DNA of 64,000 bases, taken from positions 1 through 64,000 of the forward strand of contig JANWWO010000004.1 in NCBI GenBank assembly GCA_025057375.1, read 5' to 3'. The notes under the pieces were generated by a model. That model had not been told where the DNA came from. It searched no databases and saw only the letters and a list, made by a program, of their open reading frames with translations. The translations under genes were made by a program, and so were the position numbers. Position 1 is the stretch's first letter. Each line of letters begins with the position of its first letter. The stretch is from Candidatus Absconditabacterales bacterium (GTDB lineage Bacteria; Patescibacteriota; Gracilibacteria; Absconditabacterales; Absconditicoccaceae). This document shows positions 15,372-24,760 of the stretch, in pieces.

Positions 15372-17318
15372 TTACACCACCAATTGATTGACTCTGTCAA
15401 GAAACTCTGTCACATTGACATCACCTCCTTCCAGCATTGTTGCTTGATCAGCGAGCAATTTGGCCATCATCTCTGTTTTGGGATCATGTGGTTGTTCTTG
15501 ATGCATCGCCTCGAACTTTTTGACCACATGATGATTGGGGTTGAGCATCAAAGTTTTTTTTCCTTCTTGGACTGCGTGCCCCATCGCTTTGAGAACTTTT
15601 TGCATCTGGGCAGATTGAGAAGACTCCTTACTGACAAACATTGCAGGGACAGTACCGAGTTTGGAGCTATATTGGATTTTTTCGACATTGTAGCTCGTGA
15701 GTTTGCCTTGAAGATACGCAATAATATTTTTTTGCTCTTTCGTGAGATCCAAAGACTCATCTTCAAACAAGGTCGCATCACTTGCAAGTTTGAATGGATG
15801 TCCTTTGTGTTCTCTGAGTTGTTGGAGGACATACTCATCGATGGGATCAGTGACAAAAATCATTGGCTGACCAGTGTTTTTTCTTGCATACGGACTCTGG
15901 TGGAGTTCGGAAATCGATGTTCCGACAAGATACAAAATCGGTTTTTTGATGTTGTCAGTATCTTTTTTTTCATTGTTTGTCTCATTTTTACTCGCACTCT
16001 CTCCCTCGCTTTCTGCAGGGACAAACGCATCCAAATCGGTAAATTCTTGCTTGTCTGCGTTGTAAAATAATGCAACTTCTGAAATTTTTTCTCTATTTGA
16101 CCAATCGTTTGCCATTCCCTCTTTGAGATGACGTCAGAAATTGTCAAAAAATGTTTTATAGTCAGCAAATGCTTTTTTCTTTTTCCATGCCAGCGATTTC
16201 ATCACTTCTTTGACGAGTGATTGTTGGAGTTTTTGGATGACGGGAGAATCTTGCAAAATCTCACGAGAGACATTGAGATCGACATCATTGGTTTCGACTA
16301 CTCATTTGACAAATCTCAGCCAATTAGGAAGCAAATGCTTACATTTTTGCATAATCAAAACATTTTGGACATAGAGGTCTGGTCATCGAGAATCTGGGTC
16401 ATTATCAAACATAAAAGCAGGTTTTTTTTTCGGAATATAGAGTAAGCACTTGTAGCTCAGTCATCCTTCGGTATGGACATGAATGATATCAAGAGGTTCA
16501 TCATCACTCCAAAATAATGATTTTCCAAATTCCTTGTATTCCTCTTCTTTAACATCCGCTTTACGCTTGGTCCAAATTGCTTGCATTGCGTTTACTTGTT
16601 CTCGTTGGTCTTTTTGTACTTTCCCGTCTTTGTCTTTTGCGTTCATAAAAATCGGCGTGGGTATGTAATTGCTGTGTTTTTTTATAATAGATGAAATTTT
16701 CCAATGATTAGCAAATTCTGCTGATGCTTCATTGAGATAGATGGTAATGGTTGTTCCTCTGTCTTTTCTTGTTCCATCGCTAATTGTATATACACCTTTT
16801 CCATCACTTGTCCACAATTTTGCATCTGATCCGTGTTTTTTTGAGTCTACTTCGACCTTGGATGCAACCATAAAGACAGAATAAAACCCAATTCCAAACT
16901 GTCCAATCAAATCATGTCAGGCAGGATTTTTTTCGTCTTTTTTGTCTTTGTTGATCTCAGCGAGTTTGGAAAGAAAGGCTTTGGTTCATGAATTTGCAAT
17001 TGTTCATAGATTTTTTTGCATATCGTCTGCATTCATTCAGATTCCATTATCCATTATCGTTATCGTTTTCGCTTCTTCATCTACGCTAATACGAATTTCT
17101 GGCTCACCTAGTTCGCCGACTTCGTCAGTATGGAGGGACAAAATTTTGGCTTTTTGGATAGCATCGTTTGCATTGGCAATGAGCTCTCTGAGGAAAATTT
17201 CTTTGGTCGAATATATCGAATGCGTCACTAATTGGATCAATTGTCCTACATCAGCGGAAAAATCAAACTGATTAGAATGTGATACATGTTTGTCATCATG
17301 AGAAGTTTTTTTTGCCAT
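15372..17318 (-). CDS. htpG: molecular chaperone HtpG (bacterial Hsp90)
   Basis: A 648-residue ATP-dependent chaperone, close to the 620-640 residues usual for HtpG. The GHKL ATPase domain is plain: FSADVGQLIQLVTHSIYSTK at residue 18, LRELIANANDAIQKAK with the catalytic Glu and ATP-binding Asn, TIMDNGI, and later IGQFGIGFYSVFMVA. The middle domain shows DEPLDIIHVHTEG and the C-terminal domain ends with the dimerisation helices (LADQATMLEGGDVNVTEFLDRVNQLVV). The N-terminus carries about 15 extra polar residues before the ATPase domain. Expression is probably heat-shock controlled: the promoter 40 bases upstream has a CIRCE-like inverted repeat across the start region. ATG at 17316-17318, stop at 15372-15374. 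Confidence 0.95.
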
Positions 17319-17337
17319 GGTGATATGATAAAATAAA

Positions 17338-17387
17338 AGCACTTTATGTTTGTAGGTGCTATATACTAATTTCGAGATGAAAATCAA
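17338..17387 (-). promoter_or_regulatory. htpG promoter with CIRCE-like operator
   Basis: Minus strand: TTGATT (17387-17382), 16 bp, TATATA (17365-17360). Overlapping the -10 edge is an inverted repeat AGCAC-N13-GTGCT (17338-17360). The HrcA operator CIRCE has the same AGCAC/GTGCT cores with exactly 13 bp between them, although the outer bases here differ. Confidence 0.6.
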
Positions 17388-17488
17388 GAGAAAATTTGCA
17401 CTTGTTTTTTGTTTGAGAAAGTATATATAGAGATAATAATCTGATTGCTGTCTCTTCATACGCTCCTCTGTTGTGGTACAAAAAAATT

Positions 17489-19558
17489 ATGTATAAGAAA
17501 AAAGAGCGTTATCACTTTATTGTTTATCGTATTGCTGCCATGCAAGATTCTCTCCTCAATGGTGTTTTTGACACTGATTATACAGGGTATGTTCCTGATG
17601 GTGGCTATCCTATTCTACCAACATGAAAACCAAGCGACAATCGATGGGATCGTATCGTCAAAGCTTGGTCAGCAATGATTTTTTCTACTCCAAAAAAAAC
17701 AAGCAATACACCATCCAAGGTCAATACAAAAGCTGTTGGCAAGCAACCTCTTGCGGTTCAGATCCAGACATTGCTTGCTCTTCCTGATGATGAATATAGT
17801 GATTCGTTGCTAACAAGCGAGATGAGAAAATATATTCTTGATACTGAGCGTCAGTATGCTGCGACGTTATCATCGTACAAATCACATATTGCACCATCTT
17901 ACTGGCAAGTCGAATGATCCAAAATGCAGATATCCTGAATGTTTGCCAAGTCGTATTATGTGCATGATTTTCCTAGTTATGTCGAAGCGTTGTGGACGAG
18001 AGAGGTGATTGGTTTTGGGTGAAAATTTGATCGAAGCTATTTTTTGTACAAAAATGATAACTCAAGTATCCAAACTACAATGAGAGCAAAAGCAACGATG
18101 ATCAAAGCAGAAATTAATGAAGCAATGAGAAAGGGGATTACCTTGGATTCTGAACTTGAACTGAGGTATAGAGATATTGAAATGATCAGACAAAAGCTTG
18201 CAACGCATGAAGAATCATATTTTGAACTTGGTATGTATCTAACAATCTATCATGAGGAACAAGATAAACTGACTGAATTGGGGAAAAGGCTTGAACAAGT
18301 ATTTTCGTGAATTGGTATTCTTATCAAACCTGCAATCCAAAGAATGGATGAGGGCTTTAATGCAACATTAGCATTATGTAAAGATGACATGGGCGTGACG
18401 AGATCTGCTATTACATCATCGATTGCAGGTAGTTTTCCTTTTGTATCATCAGATTTGATGACCAAAACAGGTATTTTGTATGGAATCAATTTACATACGT
18501 GATCATTGGTGATTTTTGATAGATTTAATTCAGATCTTCCCAATATGAATAGCATTGTCCTTGCAACATCGTGAGCTGGTAAATCATTTACTGTCAAACT
18601 AGAAATCATGAGATATATGATGAATGGGGTATATGTAATGGTTATTGATCCAGAAAATGAATACAAAGCTTTGTGCGAAAAGCTCGGTGGAACGTATATT
18701 TCACTTTCAACTAGCTCAACTGACTATATCAATCCCTTTGATTTACCTCCAAAAATAGACGACAGAGAATATGGACCTGGTGATCTTTTGAGAGGAAAGA
18801 TCTTAGATTTGATTTGATTGATCAAAATTTTGGTATGAGGATTGGATGCGATGGAAGAGGCATTGATGGATAAAGCACTCCAACTAACCTATCAACTCAA
18901 AGGAATCTCTTTGCAGGATGAAGATCCAACGGGGAAAGAAATGCCACGTATGGTTGATTTGTATAACGTGTTGGACGGGATGGATGGGGGAGAACAGATG
19001 GCAATGAAACTTTCCAAATTTGTTACCTGATCATTTGCGAATATTTTTAATAATTTTACGACTATTGATGTCACGAATCAGTTGACAGTCTTTTGTATCA
19101 GGGATTTGGAAGATGTTCTCAAAACACCAGTGATGTACAATATTCTCAATTTTGTCTGGACCAAAGTGAGAGCGCAAAAAAGAAAGAGACTTCTCGTATG
19201 TGATGAGGCACGGATTATGCTTCAACATGATGTCAGTGCCAATTTTTTGTTCGGATTGGTCAAAAGAGCAAGAAAATATTGACTAGGAATCACGACAATT
19301 AGCCAAGATATTGAAGATTTTATGAGAAGCCAATATGGAAAACCAATTTTGTCCAATTCTCCTTTCCAGATTCTTCTGAAACAATCAACTACATCGATGA
19401 AAGTGTTGAGCGATATGTTGGGGTTATCAGAAGCAGAAAAACATAGATTGGTTTCAGCCTGAGTAGGGGAGTGACTTATGTTTGCTGGTAACCAACATGT
19501 AGCAGTTAAAATTCTGGCTTCACCAGGAGAAAAAGATTTTTTGACAACTGATGTCTAA
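17489..19558 (+). CDS. VirB4-type T4SS/conjugation ATPase
   Basis: A 689-residue protein of the VirB4/TraE ATPase family that powers type IV secretion or DNA transfer. The N-terminal half has a proline/lysine-rich linker (residues about 65-95) and a helical region. The C-terminal half is a RecA-like ATPase: Walker A LATSGAGKSFT near residue 355 (Gly as TGA), VMVIDPENEYKAL just after it, Walker B RLLVCDEARIML near residue 568, and GLGITTISQDIEDFM plus ILSNSPFQILLKQS, the usual VirB4 tail motifs. Start ATG 17489. The final bases ATGTCTAA overlap the start of the glycosyltransferase gene by 8 bp, indicating translational coupling. No full virB cluster is present; a TraC-like N-domain protein lies at 27778. 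Confidence 0.82.
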
Positions 19559-20816
19559 ATTTTACTTCCGTCATACCATGTATCAGTATTATTTTGCAGG
19601 AAGACCAACGCAAGAAAAAGGCTGGCAACATATTCTTGATATTCTCTCTCTAATCAAACATGAGTGACATACGTGTCATATTCATTTATGTGGTCCGTGA
19701 CAGACTCACCCTGATCTTCAACCATTTGTATGATTGCCACGGGTGAGTATTTACGGTCGATTGGATAATAAAGAAATGAGTGATGTCAGAAAGCAATGTC
19801 ATTGGTGTTTGATGCCATCACTCTTTCTTGAAACATTTGGTCGTAGTGCACTAGAAGCATGTGCTGATGGTATTCCTGTTCTGGGTCCTTGTGAGTGATG
19901 ATTAACTGCGTTTGTTCATCCTGATTGGTATTGGAAGAAGGTAGGTGGAGAGGAGACAAGACGTGAATCATGGAAGACATATTTTCTCCGGTCATTATCA
20001 TGTCAAAATACACAGTATCATGCTCTTCGTCAATGGTCATATGAGCAAGCAAAAAAATTTTCTTATCATCACTGGATAAAAGAGAAAAATAAATTGATAC
20101 ACTGATCACTTATGATTATCACTGATTATGCTGTAAAAATATGATGAATAGAAAATCATGTGTATGAAATTGTATCTCATACAAAACCAACCCCTATTAT
20201 TGTAGGAGCAAGTCTCTCGCCCAACATATGGTGAAGGATAAAAAAGTATCGGTGAGTGATAACAAATTTTTTTCTTCCTTTGCAATTGCTTTGATTTCCA
20301 CGAAAACGTAGTTCATTATATGATACATTGTGGGTACATGGATGTTCAAGATTTTGGTGACCATGGCTTGTATGGCTTTTGCCTCGTGTTCACTATCGTT
20401 TGGTTAGCATTCATGATTATTCATTTGTTGCTCCTTTTGCTCATTGTGTATGGAGTGAGGAAGATATTCCAGCTACACCACAACGAACCTCATGGATAGA
20501 AACAATGCGAAAAAAAACAGCGTCAAGACGATGATGGTGAAAAAGAATCATGTTTACCTTTTTGACATGCTATAAACGATTGGTAATGTGGCTGATGCGA
20601 CAAGGAATCAATAACTGGGCACGTATGATTATTATTCCATCATCAAGTATGCTGCCTTTTGTTCAACGTTATACACAACTTCCCATTACTATTTTTGCAC
20701 CATGATTTACTACGCAGAATCAGGCTGGTCACGTTGAGACTGATCATGTTTCTGGTGAGATTGATCTCAAGGAGAAAAATGATGGTTATGATTGAGAATA
20801 TCATGAGTTTGTTTAA
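19551..20816 (+). CDS. GT-B glycosyltransferase with donor domain placed first
   Basis: A 421-residue protein. Residues about 10-165 form the C-terminal type domain of a family-4 glycosyltransferase: [38 protein letters not shown]-like strand, [19 protein letters not shown] with the conserved E-x7-E arrangement, [14 protein letters not shown]. From about residue 185 a second region begins like the N-terminal domain of the same fold: [20 protein letters not shown], then [17 protein letters not shown]. The two halves are therefore in reverse order relative to a normal GT4 enzyme. This is either a circular permutation or a fusion of half-domains from different enzymes. Start ATG 19551 overlaps the VirB4 stop. 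Its last 107 bases overlap the 3' end of the convergent Xer recombinase gene. Confidence 0.7.
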
Positions 20817-21663
20817 GATGTTGGTCATCGATATGAGTGTAAATCTGTGTGGTAGTGATACTTGAATGTCCAAGAAGAATTTGGACAGATCTGAGGTCTG
20901 CTCATTTTTTGAGAAGACTTGTTGCAAAGCTATGTCTGAGTGTATGTGGTGTGACGCGCTTATTTATCCCAGCAAGACGGGCATAGTCGCGAACGAGAGC
21001 TTCAATGCTATTCCTTGATAGTTGTTTTCCTTTGGTGTTGTTTGCAAGTGAGACAAACACGTAGGGAGATCATCATGGGTGGTGGGGGAGTGCTGTTTGG
21101 ATTGCATCAAAGGCTGCACGTGTTAAAAAAACGCTCCTCATTTTTCTTCCTTTCCCTATTATACGGATCTGTCATGCCTCACTTCCTATTTGATCCAGGC
21201 GAAGAGAGCATAATTCACTGACTCTGAGTCATGTTCCATACAGACAGTACAAAATTGCTGTATCTCTCGTTCTTTTTGCTTCATTGCGTTGGTATATATT
21301 GGGTGCCTGTAAGAGACGATCGATATCTTCTTGATCCAAAAAATCTACTTCTCTTGGATCGATGTTTGCCAAATCGAGCGCATCATAATCAAGACAAGAA
21401 ATACCATTTTTTTTGCAAAACTTGAGCATTGATCTCATTGCAACAATGTGATAATTAATAGTTTTTGGTGACAGTCATTGATTCTTCAGTGCACGACGTC
21501 GCTGTAGTAATCACAGCTGTGTCAAATCTTGGACTGTACATGATCAAAAAAACTCGATTGCTCTTCCAAGCCAGAGGGTATAATTTTCTGATGTTTTGGG
21601 ACTGGCGTTTTTTGCATCCTGTAGATGATGCAAAAAGAGGTCAATACAAGATGCTAATTGCAT
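20710..21663 (-). CDS. Xer-type tyrosine recombinase
   Basis: A 317-residue site-specific recombinase of the XerC/XerD family. The N-terminal SAM-like domain begins [19 protein letters not shown] with later [18 protein letters not shown]. The catalytic domain shows [17 protein letters not shown] (first Arg), [21 protein letters not shown] (His-x-x-Arg), [15 protein letters not shown] (His and the nucleophilic Tyr). All catalytic residues are present, so it is probably the chromosome-dimer recombinase rather than a phage relic; no attachment-site repeats are visible around it. Start ATG at 21661-21663. The C-terminus past Tyr is longer than usual ([17 protein letters not shown]...), and this His/Gln/Asp-rich tail is the part that overlaps the opposing glycosyltransferase gene. 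Confidence 0.88.
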
Positions 21664-21859: not shown

Positions 21860-22393
21860 ATGAATCTCAATAAGCTTTTTGCCTCAAAAACGAAAGTTGA
21901 TATTCTCAAATATCTCATTTTCAAAAGGCAAGGAGTATCAATGAGGGCTCTTGAGACAGATTTGACATGGACATTCCCTGCAATCAAAAAACAAGTTGAT
22001 GCTCTCAATGAAGCTGATATTCTTATTACCGATAAATCACAACAGAAGCGATCAATTGAGTTATCTCCTTATGCTGCCCCCTGGATTAAACAAGTTTTTC
22101 TTGCAGCTCTTGCTCATGAAATCAGAATGGCAATGGGGGAGTATTGAGAAGGGATTGAAAGAGTTTTTTTTGGGAAAATCTTTGGAACAGAGATGGATGT
22201 TGATCTGGTTTTGATTCATAGTGTTGAAAAAGAAACTCTTGAGACCATCAAATCAGTAGTGTCTGACATTTTTCGTTCGTACTTTATTGAGCAAGTTGGA
22301 GTTGCTATTATGAGCTCTAAAGAGTGGGAACAGAGATATAGGCTTGCTGATAAATTTGTTTTATCAGTTCTGAGACATCCGCAAATTTTCTAA
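21860..22393 (+). CDS. winged-helix protein with nucleotidyltransferase-like C-terminal domain
   Basis: A 177-residue protein in two parts. Residues 1-85 look like a winged helix: NLNKLFASKTKVDILKYLIF, then a recognition-helix type segment SMRALETDLTWTFPAIKKQVDALNEADIL. Residues about 95-177 contain RVFFGKIFGTEMDVDLVLIH, which is reminiscent of the minimal nucleotidyltransferase core (G-x..-D-x-D) but with weak conservation, so catalytic activity is doubtful. Such HTH-MNT proteins act as regulators or antitoxin-like modulators in other bacteria; here that is only a possibility. A good promoter precedes it, and the ATP-grasp/peptidase fusion starts 27 bases after its stop (TAA 22391-22393), so the pair is probably one transcript and this protein could be its regulator. 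Confidence 0.6.
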
Positions 22394-22420: not shown

Positions 22421-24760
22421 ATGTTTGGTGTTTTGTGATTAAATACAAGGAATAGTATTATTGCTGCTAATCCTGCAAATGAGAAAAAAATTGCCTTTAT
22501 CAAAAATAAAGAAAAAACAAAACAATTTTTGTATGCGAGAGGGATCCCTGTCCCGAAAACATTGGCATTTTTTTCTACCAAACATGAATGTGAAACGTTT
22601 AATTTTTTTTCTCTTCCATCATTGTTTGTTATCAAGCCGAATAAGGGCTCAAAAGGGAATGGTATTTTGATCAATAAAGCAGATCTTGTAACAGACGACG
22701 ACTGCGGAAAAATTCGTCGTCATTGTCTTCAGATTCTTTCTTGAGATTATTCTTTGTCATGACGTCCCGATTCGGTATTGATTGAGTCATGTATCATTCC
22801 TGGATCATGATTTGATGTTTTCTGTGAATGGTGATTAGCTGATATCAGAGTCATTTCGTATCGTAATGTTCCTGTATTGGGTATGGTGAGAGTTCCAACA
22901 CAAGCATCGTGATGAAAAGCGAATCTTGCTCAAGGAGGATTATGATTGGGAATTGATCTTAGCTCATGAGTAGTTACATCAGTTGTGTCATCACAGTGAT
23001 ACTATACAGAACAAACAGCACCAGATGAGTATCGTATCTTTTTTTGACAGCAGGTACCTTATCGAGAGATGATTTTGGAGTTATCTAGTCGTATTCAAAT
23101 TTTTCTTGGAATTGACTATGTGTGATTTGATTGGGTGGTTAATGACCAAGGACCAATGATTCTTGAAATTAATGGTAGACCATGACTCGAAATCCAAAAC
23201 ATTACGATGACGCCTCTTCTCACCCGTCTCAATCAAATAGAAACAGTAAAAATTGCATCTCCCAAAAAAGCTGTTGCTCTTGCACAAATGCTTTGGTGAG
23301 AACGTGATGATGCTGGAGGAACGAATGCGTATGATAAGCCTTTTTTATATCTTAGTCAGCAGGGGAAACTAATTGCTTCAACAGGAGAATACGATGTTAT
23401 TGTTCAGATTGACCTCAATCGTGTCAGTTCATTTTGTTCTCTTTCTTTTTTATCGCTTCTTCAAGGAGAGACATTTCTTTTTTTTCCTCATCTCAAAAAA
23501 AAATTTCCTCTTGTTCTTAAACGTGAAGCATCCTTGAAAGATATGACGATCGTTGTGGGAAGAAAATTTTGTTCGTGATTTTTAATTATTCCCAAAAGAC
23601 AAGAAGATCTTCAAAAAAGAACAGTCTTTTGGTCAACATATAGTCATGAAATGACTGCGTTAACGGTGTGGGATCTCAAAATTAGTAAATACTATCAAGC
23701 AATATCCTTTAAAAATACACTCTTACCAACCAATATGGATCATGAACTTGATCTTTTTGTTCGTTATGAGGGAGATTATGAACCTACATTTTCATATACA
23801 TGGCAATATGACAAAATTGTACGTCGTTATGATTATGGACTTAAACTTTTGGCAAAATTCGATAAGGCATGATTGCAATCACCATTTGCCAGACTCTTAA
23901 GAGAAAAGCTTTTGCGTTGAATACATAAACGTGCTTTGCTACTCGCTCTTGATACATGCAATTATGATGAAGCGATGGCATTGCAAACAGGATGGATTTT
24001 GCACGTTGGTGATATGTATCGTGCGTCTGCGCATGAGCGTGTACAGCATATCAAACGTTGTGATACACAGCTACATCGTCGTCTCACCTCATGACAGGCT
24101 CAAAAGTATCTTGTTGATCATCTTGCACGTCTGTGATATAATGATATTCCTGTGCTGACTCGTTATTCTTGATGAGCAAAAATTTCATTGGGATATACAA
24201 GCAAAGGTGCATGTATCTATATTCAACCACGTCGCCTTCATAACCAAAGGGAACATATCTGGATATCAAAACTTATTCATGAACTTGATGTTCATTTGGT
24301 GAGATATATGAAATGATTTGAGAGTGGTTGGAAAATTTTGACGATTGGGACTGCAGACTATAAAACTACCGAAGAGTGACTTGCTATTTATTGTTCGGAA
24401 CAATATCTGTCGTCAGTTACAGATGGTCAGTGGAAAAATACAGATAGCGCTCGAAATTATCTGTTTGTTGACTATGCTCAAACACATTCATTTGCTCAGA
24501 CAGCAAAGTATATTGATGAATCCCATAAATGTATATATTCGAGAACAAAAAAATGGGCTACACTTTTTGCAAAAACATTAAGAGTAAAAATGGGTGTCAA
24601 AAACGGTGCTGACCCACGTTATACATTTGGACAGGATAGTGTCTATCGAGCAGGATATCACAGCATTCTTGCATTTCTTGCACAGGGACATGATCTTTCT
24701 TCTCTTTTTAAAGGAAAAATCGGCATTCATGATAGAGAGATGTTAGATCATCGTGAATAG
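22421..24760 (+). CDS. fusion of ATP-grasp (alpha-L-glutamate ligase-like) and DUF1704/MATCAP-type metallopeptidase
   Basis: One uninterrupted 779-codon frame. Residues 1-290 are an ATP-grasp ligase of the alpha-L-glutamate ligase-like (RimK-related) type: FGVLGLNTRN at the start, ARGIPVPKTLAFF, IKPNKGSKGNGI near residue 74 (ATP loop), ANLAQGGLGLGI, and LEINGRPGLEIQNI near 248 (metal-binding E-x-N). Residues about 400-779 match DUF1704, a zinc-peptidase family related to the tubulin tyrosine carboxypeptidase MATCAP: HELDVH at 620-625 is the HExxxH motif and TEEGLA at 650-655 the family Q/T-E-G-L-A motif with the second-shell Glu. An N-terminal amino-acid ligase and a C-terminal carboxypeptidase on one chain could add and remove a peptide tag or process a peptide. 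That role is inference. At least 25 TGA codons are read as Gly, including the key G653. Confidence 0.8.

Follow-up and report, generated by a model that had tools for sequence, protein, structure and literature searches.

A single gene of the window, the 64,000-nucleotide stretch of DNA analyzed here, encodes an ATP-grasp ligase, a degenerate retropepsin, and an intact MATCAP-type carboxypeptidase on one chain, as sequence and structure comparisons show. The gene lies at 22421–24760 on the forward strand and specifies 779 amino acids under genetic code 25 (TGA = Gly), and full-length homologs of about 800 amino acids are present in the class and the phylum. A sequence-only reading of this DNA had described an ATP-grasp ligase fused to a DUF1704/MATCAP peptidase. 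Both domains are present (matches to TIGR02291, PF14397, and PF08014), whereas a third, inactivated retropepsin domain at about residues 307–392 had been overlooked. Among relatives, the type of peptidase and the C-terminal end of the partner protein RloB vary together, which provides a concrete candidate substrate.

The frame is open for 779 amino acids only under code 25, with 23 in-frame TGA codons, and translation of the region with table 11 yields no long frame. At 14 of the 23 TGA sites, standard-code relatives most often have glycine, compared with 27 of 710 non-Gly sites. This glycine excess indicates that code 25 and the frame are right, and the possibility that the frame is an artefact was thereby removed. 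The AlphaFold2 model of the fusion protein has a pLDDT of 87. The window derives from contig C16 of a 1.13-Mb genome that is 97% complete.

The ligase domain (residues 3–292; 22427–23296, forward strand) is of the RloC, or rimK_rel_E_lig, type. It matches TIGR02291 (alpha-L-glutamate ligase-like) at 1.5e-52 and PF14397 at 8e-45, Foldseek of the fusion model recovers RimK (4iwx/5zk6, E = 2.6e-8), and both Foldseek and profile comparison with the PDB place its fold close to RimK and cyanophycin synthetase. The metal-site residues D237, E249, and N251 (23129–23173, forward strand) are invariant in 45 aligned sequences and align with the D..E.N of RimK structures. The domain scores 178.6 bits against a TIGR02291 equivalog cut-off of 314.2 (a sister fusion reaches 298.4) and 36 bits against a RimK family cut-off of 143.4; because both are missed, specificity for glutamate stays putative. 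By analogy with RimK, the amino acid added would most likely be glutamate.

The carboxypeptidase domain (residues 433–779; 23717–24757, forward strand) is matched by PF08014 at residues 618–776 with 39 bits, above the Pfam gathering cut-off of 27, and misses the equivalog cut-off of TIGR02421 QEGLA (48.5 bits against 338.65). A profile of the 45-sequence family recovers human MATCAP (7z5g) from the PDB at E = 1.6e-32, in an alignment that also covers conserved residues lying well N-terminal to the zinc motif, and Foldseek of the fusion model recovers the same structure at E = 1e-8. H620, E621, and H625 of the zinc motif HELDVH (residues 620–625; 24278–24295, forward strand) and E652 of TEEGLA (residues 650–655; 24368–24385, forward strand) are invariant in the 45 sequences. 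The third zinc ligand is presumably E652, which corresponds to E364 of TMCP2 by spacing (PMC10499314). A C-terminal region lacking a zinc site would have undone the original description; the invariant motifs and the resemblance of the model to human MATCAP speak for such a site. In humans, TMCP/MATCAP enzymes cleave Tyr and Glu from C-termini, shorten poly-Glu chains, and oppose the TTL/TTLL ligases (PMC10499314), and by this analogy the intact bacterial domain is putatively active on C-terminal Tyr or Glu.

Residues 307–392 (23339–23596, forward strand) form the third domain, a retropepsin of the RloA/RimB type. Folded alone, this domain has a pLDDT of 87, and a structure search of the PDB with the isolated model returns DDI1 RVP, RloA (9g58), and HTLV-1 protease first; the E-values are modest (1.6e-3 and up), and nearly all of the top 50 structures are aspartic proteases. 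When fused forms without DTG are compared with stand-alone RloA-type proteins by hhalign, the probability is 96.9% (E = 1.4e-10), and that of the reversed control is 0.3%. The sequence profile of the middle domain recovers 9g58 from the PDB weakly (E = 0.38), its aspartyl-protease matches in Pfam scans are all sub-threshold, and PF05618, which recognizes the equivalent position in two-domain proteins of other Patescibacteria, has no match in the window's own genome. The middle region of relatives aligns with RimB/RloA, with AKVDTG or MDSG kept in few and the C-terminal VIGRRDLxxFLIDPSK of the retropepsin region kept in many. Alignment of the stand-alone (R), two-domain ligase–retropepsin (AR), and triple ligase–retropepsin–MATCAP (ARM) forms places D331-L332-N333 (23411–23419, forward strand) at the site of the catalytic Asp-Thr-Gly, which is replaced by DLN in the window protein. 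The catalytic D[TS]G is kept in 21 of 23 R and 57 of 62 AR proteins and in 2 of 77 ARM proteins. On sequence and structure comparison, the middle domain is a retropepsin fold that has lost its catalytic site.

The fusion is one member of a series that was surveyed in 380 genomes of the phylum. A search for the same fusion elsewhere had been advised, and full-length ARM was found in 39 of the 380 (39 copies), predominating in the window's class and occurring sporadically outside it. Most other ligase-bearing Patescibacteria carry AR with a live retropepsin; RloB precedes the ligase–retropepsin gene at these loci, and MATCAP, if present, is a separate gene that adjoins it or lies some genes away. 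In many Proteobacterial loci, RloA, RloB, and RloC are separate genes. The ATP-grasp tree groups ARM into one clade (SH-aLRT 96), with a single fragment from a relative falling outside it, and AR into another (SH-aLRT 91). Nested inside AR (99) are four loci (L189, L238, L239, and L242) in which N-T-G or N-T-S stands in the retropepsin and the adjoining gene encodes MATCAP. Retropepsin inactivation goes with close MATCAP coupling in two lineages. Adjacency of MATCAP alone does not entail inactivation, since at three loci (L104, L105, and L108) MATCAP is adjacent, yet the retropepsin is live and RloB has no Glu-Glu end.

Other arrangements were also observed in the series. AR proteins at L112 (6408–9173) and at L155/L229 (a frame of 854 amino acids) have a C-terminal extension of about 400–450 amino acids that is matched by no profile used. 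In other Patescibacteria, another one to three ATP-grasp genes are found near the ligase–retropepsin gene or directly downstream of it (at L120, L208, L109, L121, and other loci), and their recurrence suggests a chain of several amide ligations.

In most relatives, the gene directly upstream of the fusion encodes RloB (PF14402; a 7TM inactive transglutaminase). The ligase is present in 115 of the 380 genomes and RloB in 113, all 113 of which also have the ligase; the two genes are adjacent in 110 genomes, with RloB upstream. RloB–RloC pairing is obligate in Patescibacteria. The neighborhood had previously been read as an HTH gene preceding the fusion; the real partner is not that gene but RloB, which stands immediately upstream in nearly all other genomes. 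The RloB of the window's genome was missed by PF14402 and by a full-length profile, and was recovered by a 7TM-only profile (E = 1.1e-9) as a divergent, unlinked frame of 523 amino acids on another contig (G000:C21). In Pseudomonas aeruginosa, cells that lose the RloA proteases are rescued when rloB or rloC is deleted, and the transglutaminase domain of RloB is predicted to be periplasmic (PMC12239564). With a periplasmic transglutaminase domain followed by seven helices, the C-terminus of RloB would be cytoplasmic. The literature searched does not describe the substrates of RloC-type ligases or the way in which these enzymes work with RloB.

In the first set of loci, RloB ends in Glu-Glu (EE) in 40 of 45 ARM cases, 4 of 62 AR cases, and 0 of 20 Proteobacterial cases, with a background of 3 in 245 among other ORFs of the ARM loci. 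The EE prediction was written down before a set of held-out genomes was read. Among these, EE was found in 29 of 30 ARM cases (18 of 19 when already-seen tails are left out), in 0 of 21 AR cases, and in all three AR cases with a dead retropepsin and an adjacent MATCAP, one of which (G355) carries L242, a locus with a retropepsin state known beforehand. Thus, the EE end of RloB goes with a fused MATCAP, or with an adjacent MATCAP and a dead retropepsin, and is rare elsewhere. It is missing from RloB in three code-25 relatives (G006, G009, and G011) and at L137. The association between a dead retropepsin and EE represents two independent origins on the tree, both concordant, a number that cannot reach significance alone. 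Among 71 distinct RloB tails from ARM genomes, Glu occupies position −1 in 93% and position −2 in 89%, and at positions −3 to −14 no residue exceeds 39%. In tails so deeply diverged, conservation of the terminus only is the pattern expected of a substrate or recognition site of a C-terminal enzyme.

Several code-25 members of the window's family (L082, L083, L085, and L088) have RloB moved away from the fusion with the Glu-Glu(-Glu) end kept, so the motif survives without linkage. At L113 (2708–3394), an RloB homolog has a genome-encoded poly-Glu tail (SEEEEEEEREEE), and the retropepsin of that locus keeps D-T-G. Two other candidate substrates were considered. Ribosomal protein S6, the target of RimK, ends in NIKL, DITL, DIDV, IDKV, and IPGV in five standard-code relatives with the fusion, and is disfavored since none of the five ends in EE. 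The conserved gene of 150–210 amino acids upstream of RloB in two-domain genomes was rejected, as it resembles RuvC by eye (GIDPGTA...).

We propose, with about an even chance of being right, that the Patescibacterial form of RloABC combines a writer and an eraser on one chain for the reversible (poly)glutamylation of the cytoplasmic RloB tail. The ligase would add amino acids, most likely Glu, to the cytoplasmic C-terminus of RloB, and the MATCAP domain would trim the added residues, as human TMCP/MATCAP does on the Glu chains of tubulin. The length of the tail would then set the envelope or osmotic-stress output of RloB. The ancestral eraser would have been the retropepsin (RloA), which may have become a dead structural domain once MATCAP took over. 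The earlier suggestion of a reversible C-terminal modification accords well with these findings. The poly-Glu tail at L113, present despite a live retropepsin, counts against the proposal, as do the loci with an adjacent MATCAP, a live retropepsin, and no EE. A broader form of the proposal, which we hold more tentatively and at somewhat less than an even chance, is a reversible C-terminal glutamylation code on RloB, whose eraser was swapped from an aspartic endopeptidase, the retropepsin, to a zinc carboxypeptidase, MATCAP, and whose encoded EE arose with the swap in two lineages. If true, prokaryotes would have their own equivalent of the TTL/TTLL–MATCAP cycle on tubulin tails, and bacterial envelope control would be linked to enzyme families that edit those tails in eukaryotes.

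The same enzymes could instead add and remove C-terminal residues elsewhere, on a cell-wall peptide or a protein of the envelope, with the EE of RloB serving as a docking motif that recruits them to the membrane. Short terminal motifs are often docking sites, and EE is conserved but short; the RloB partner genes are obligate, and the rlo phenotypes of Pseudomonas concern the envelope, osmotic stress, and cell shape (PMC12239564). However, a C-terminal Glu-Glu is the type of end on which RimK and MATCAP/TMCP act, and EE tracks the carboxypeptidase rather than RloB or the ligase in general, and we consider docking unlikely, at perhaps one chance in four. Alternatively, the chain could make and degrade free poly-alpha-glutamate or a similar peptide as an osmolyte or store, with RloB sensing or exporting the product. 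RimK does make free poly-alpha-Glu, stimulated by RimB (PMC11957791), and the kinship of the ligase fold with RimK and cyanophycin synthetase is in keeping with this. Such a role would leave the conserved Glu-Glu at the end of RloB unexplained, and without regulation, a polymerase and a carboxypeptidase on one chain would undo each other's work in a futile cycle; we regard this role as improbable.

Ligase–retropepsin fusions (RimBK) and the RloABC system are already known. RloABC of P. aeruginosa (PMC12239564) shares with the Patescibacterial system the RloC-type ATP-grasp, the 7TM inactive transglutaminase RloB, and an RloA-type retropepsin. Its RloA is a separate, secreted, and active protease (PMC12239564), unlike the Patescibacterial domain, which is fused to RloC and catalytically dead on a chain that also carries MATCAP. 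RimK and RimB have opposite effects on protein C-termini, the first attaching Glu and the second taking it off (PMC11957791), and the RimBK hybrid of Desulfotalea psychrophila, with an ATP-grasp ligase and a retropepsin on one polypeptide, is a precedent for a writer–eraser chain (PMC11957791). In contrast to the window protein, the hybrid is of the RimK/RimB type and its retropepsin is active, and neither MATCAP nor RloB is described for it. RimK itself, the ribosomal protein S6 ligase, shares the ATP-grasp fold and the catalytic D/E/N pattern, whereas the window ligase falls far below its family cut-off and the S6 proteins of the five standard-code genomes lack EE. Human MATCAP/TMCP1 and TMCP2 (KIAA0895L/KIAA0895; PMC10499314) share with the bacterial domain their peptidase family, the HExxH motif, and the TEEGLA glutamate; they act on tubulin as separate enzymes.

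Neither a triple fusion that includes MATCAP and a dead retropepsin nor the coupled change in the RloB C-terminus was found in the literature searched, and the same holds for any mention of DUF1704 together with ATP-grasp. An earlier description is possible, as Iyer et al. (2009) may describe parts of such systems. A pseudoprotease between a live-looking ligase and a live-looking carboxypeptidase would be a clear example in which, within one protein family, a catalytic class seems to have been replaced by another.

The proposed glutamylation of the RloB tail is a stronger claim for the family than for the window copy. In the window protein, both the fold and the catalytic residues favor the same chemistry; its exact acceptor is uncertain, since the window's own RloB has lost Glu-Glu and ends in KPQ. 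The copy might be diverging or decaying, having lost RloB linkage and EE and now drifting or changing substrate. Its branch (1.33) is the longest in the ATP-grasp tree, and 9 of 74 near-invariant positions are changed, the most among the 45 sequences, none of them catalytic. Against this stand the intact catalytic residues of both the ligase and MATCAP, a frame open over all its codons, and a confidently modeled chain, and we would give decay little credence.

The earlier reading paired the fusion enzyme with an HTH-MNT regulator, whose gene ends 27 bases upstream on the same strand. Such a two-gene unit is very improbable, as the HTH gene, found in 29 of 40 relatives, lies at least 13 kb from the fusion or on another contig wherever it could be placed, and the promoter signal is not above chance. 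The "clear promoter" once assigned to the unit was not borne out: 15 promoter-like sites were seen where 15.3 were expected, with none upstream of the HTH gene. The position of the gene stands; its role as a dedicated regulator was rejected, and it is a conserved family-wide gene. It encodes a winged-helix protein of 177 amino acids (21860–22393 of the window) with a possible nucleotidyltransferase-like half, at most 57% identical to its counterparts in the 29 relatives. A defense system was also considered, for which PADLOC gave weak matches only (the enzyme to Cmr5, 0.03; the HTH gene to PDC-M05A, 1.7e-6, full-length). Near the fusion, the window also encodes a TraG/VirB4-like P-loop ATPase (17279–19558), a tyrosine recombinase (20710–21663), and a glycosyltransferase (19551–20816).
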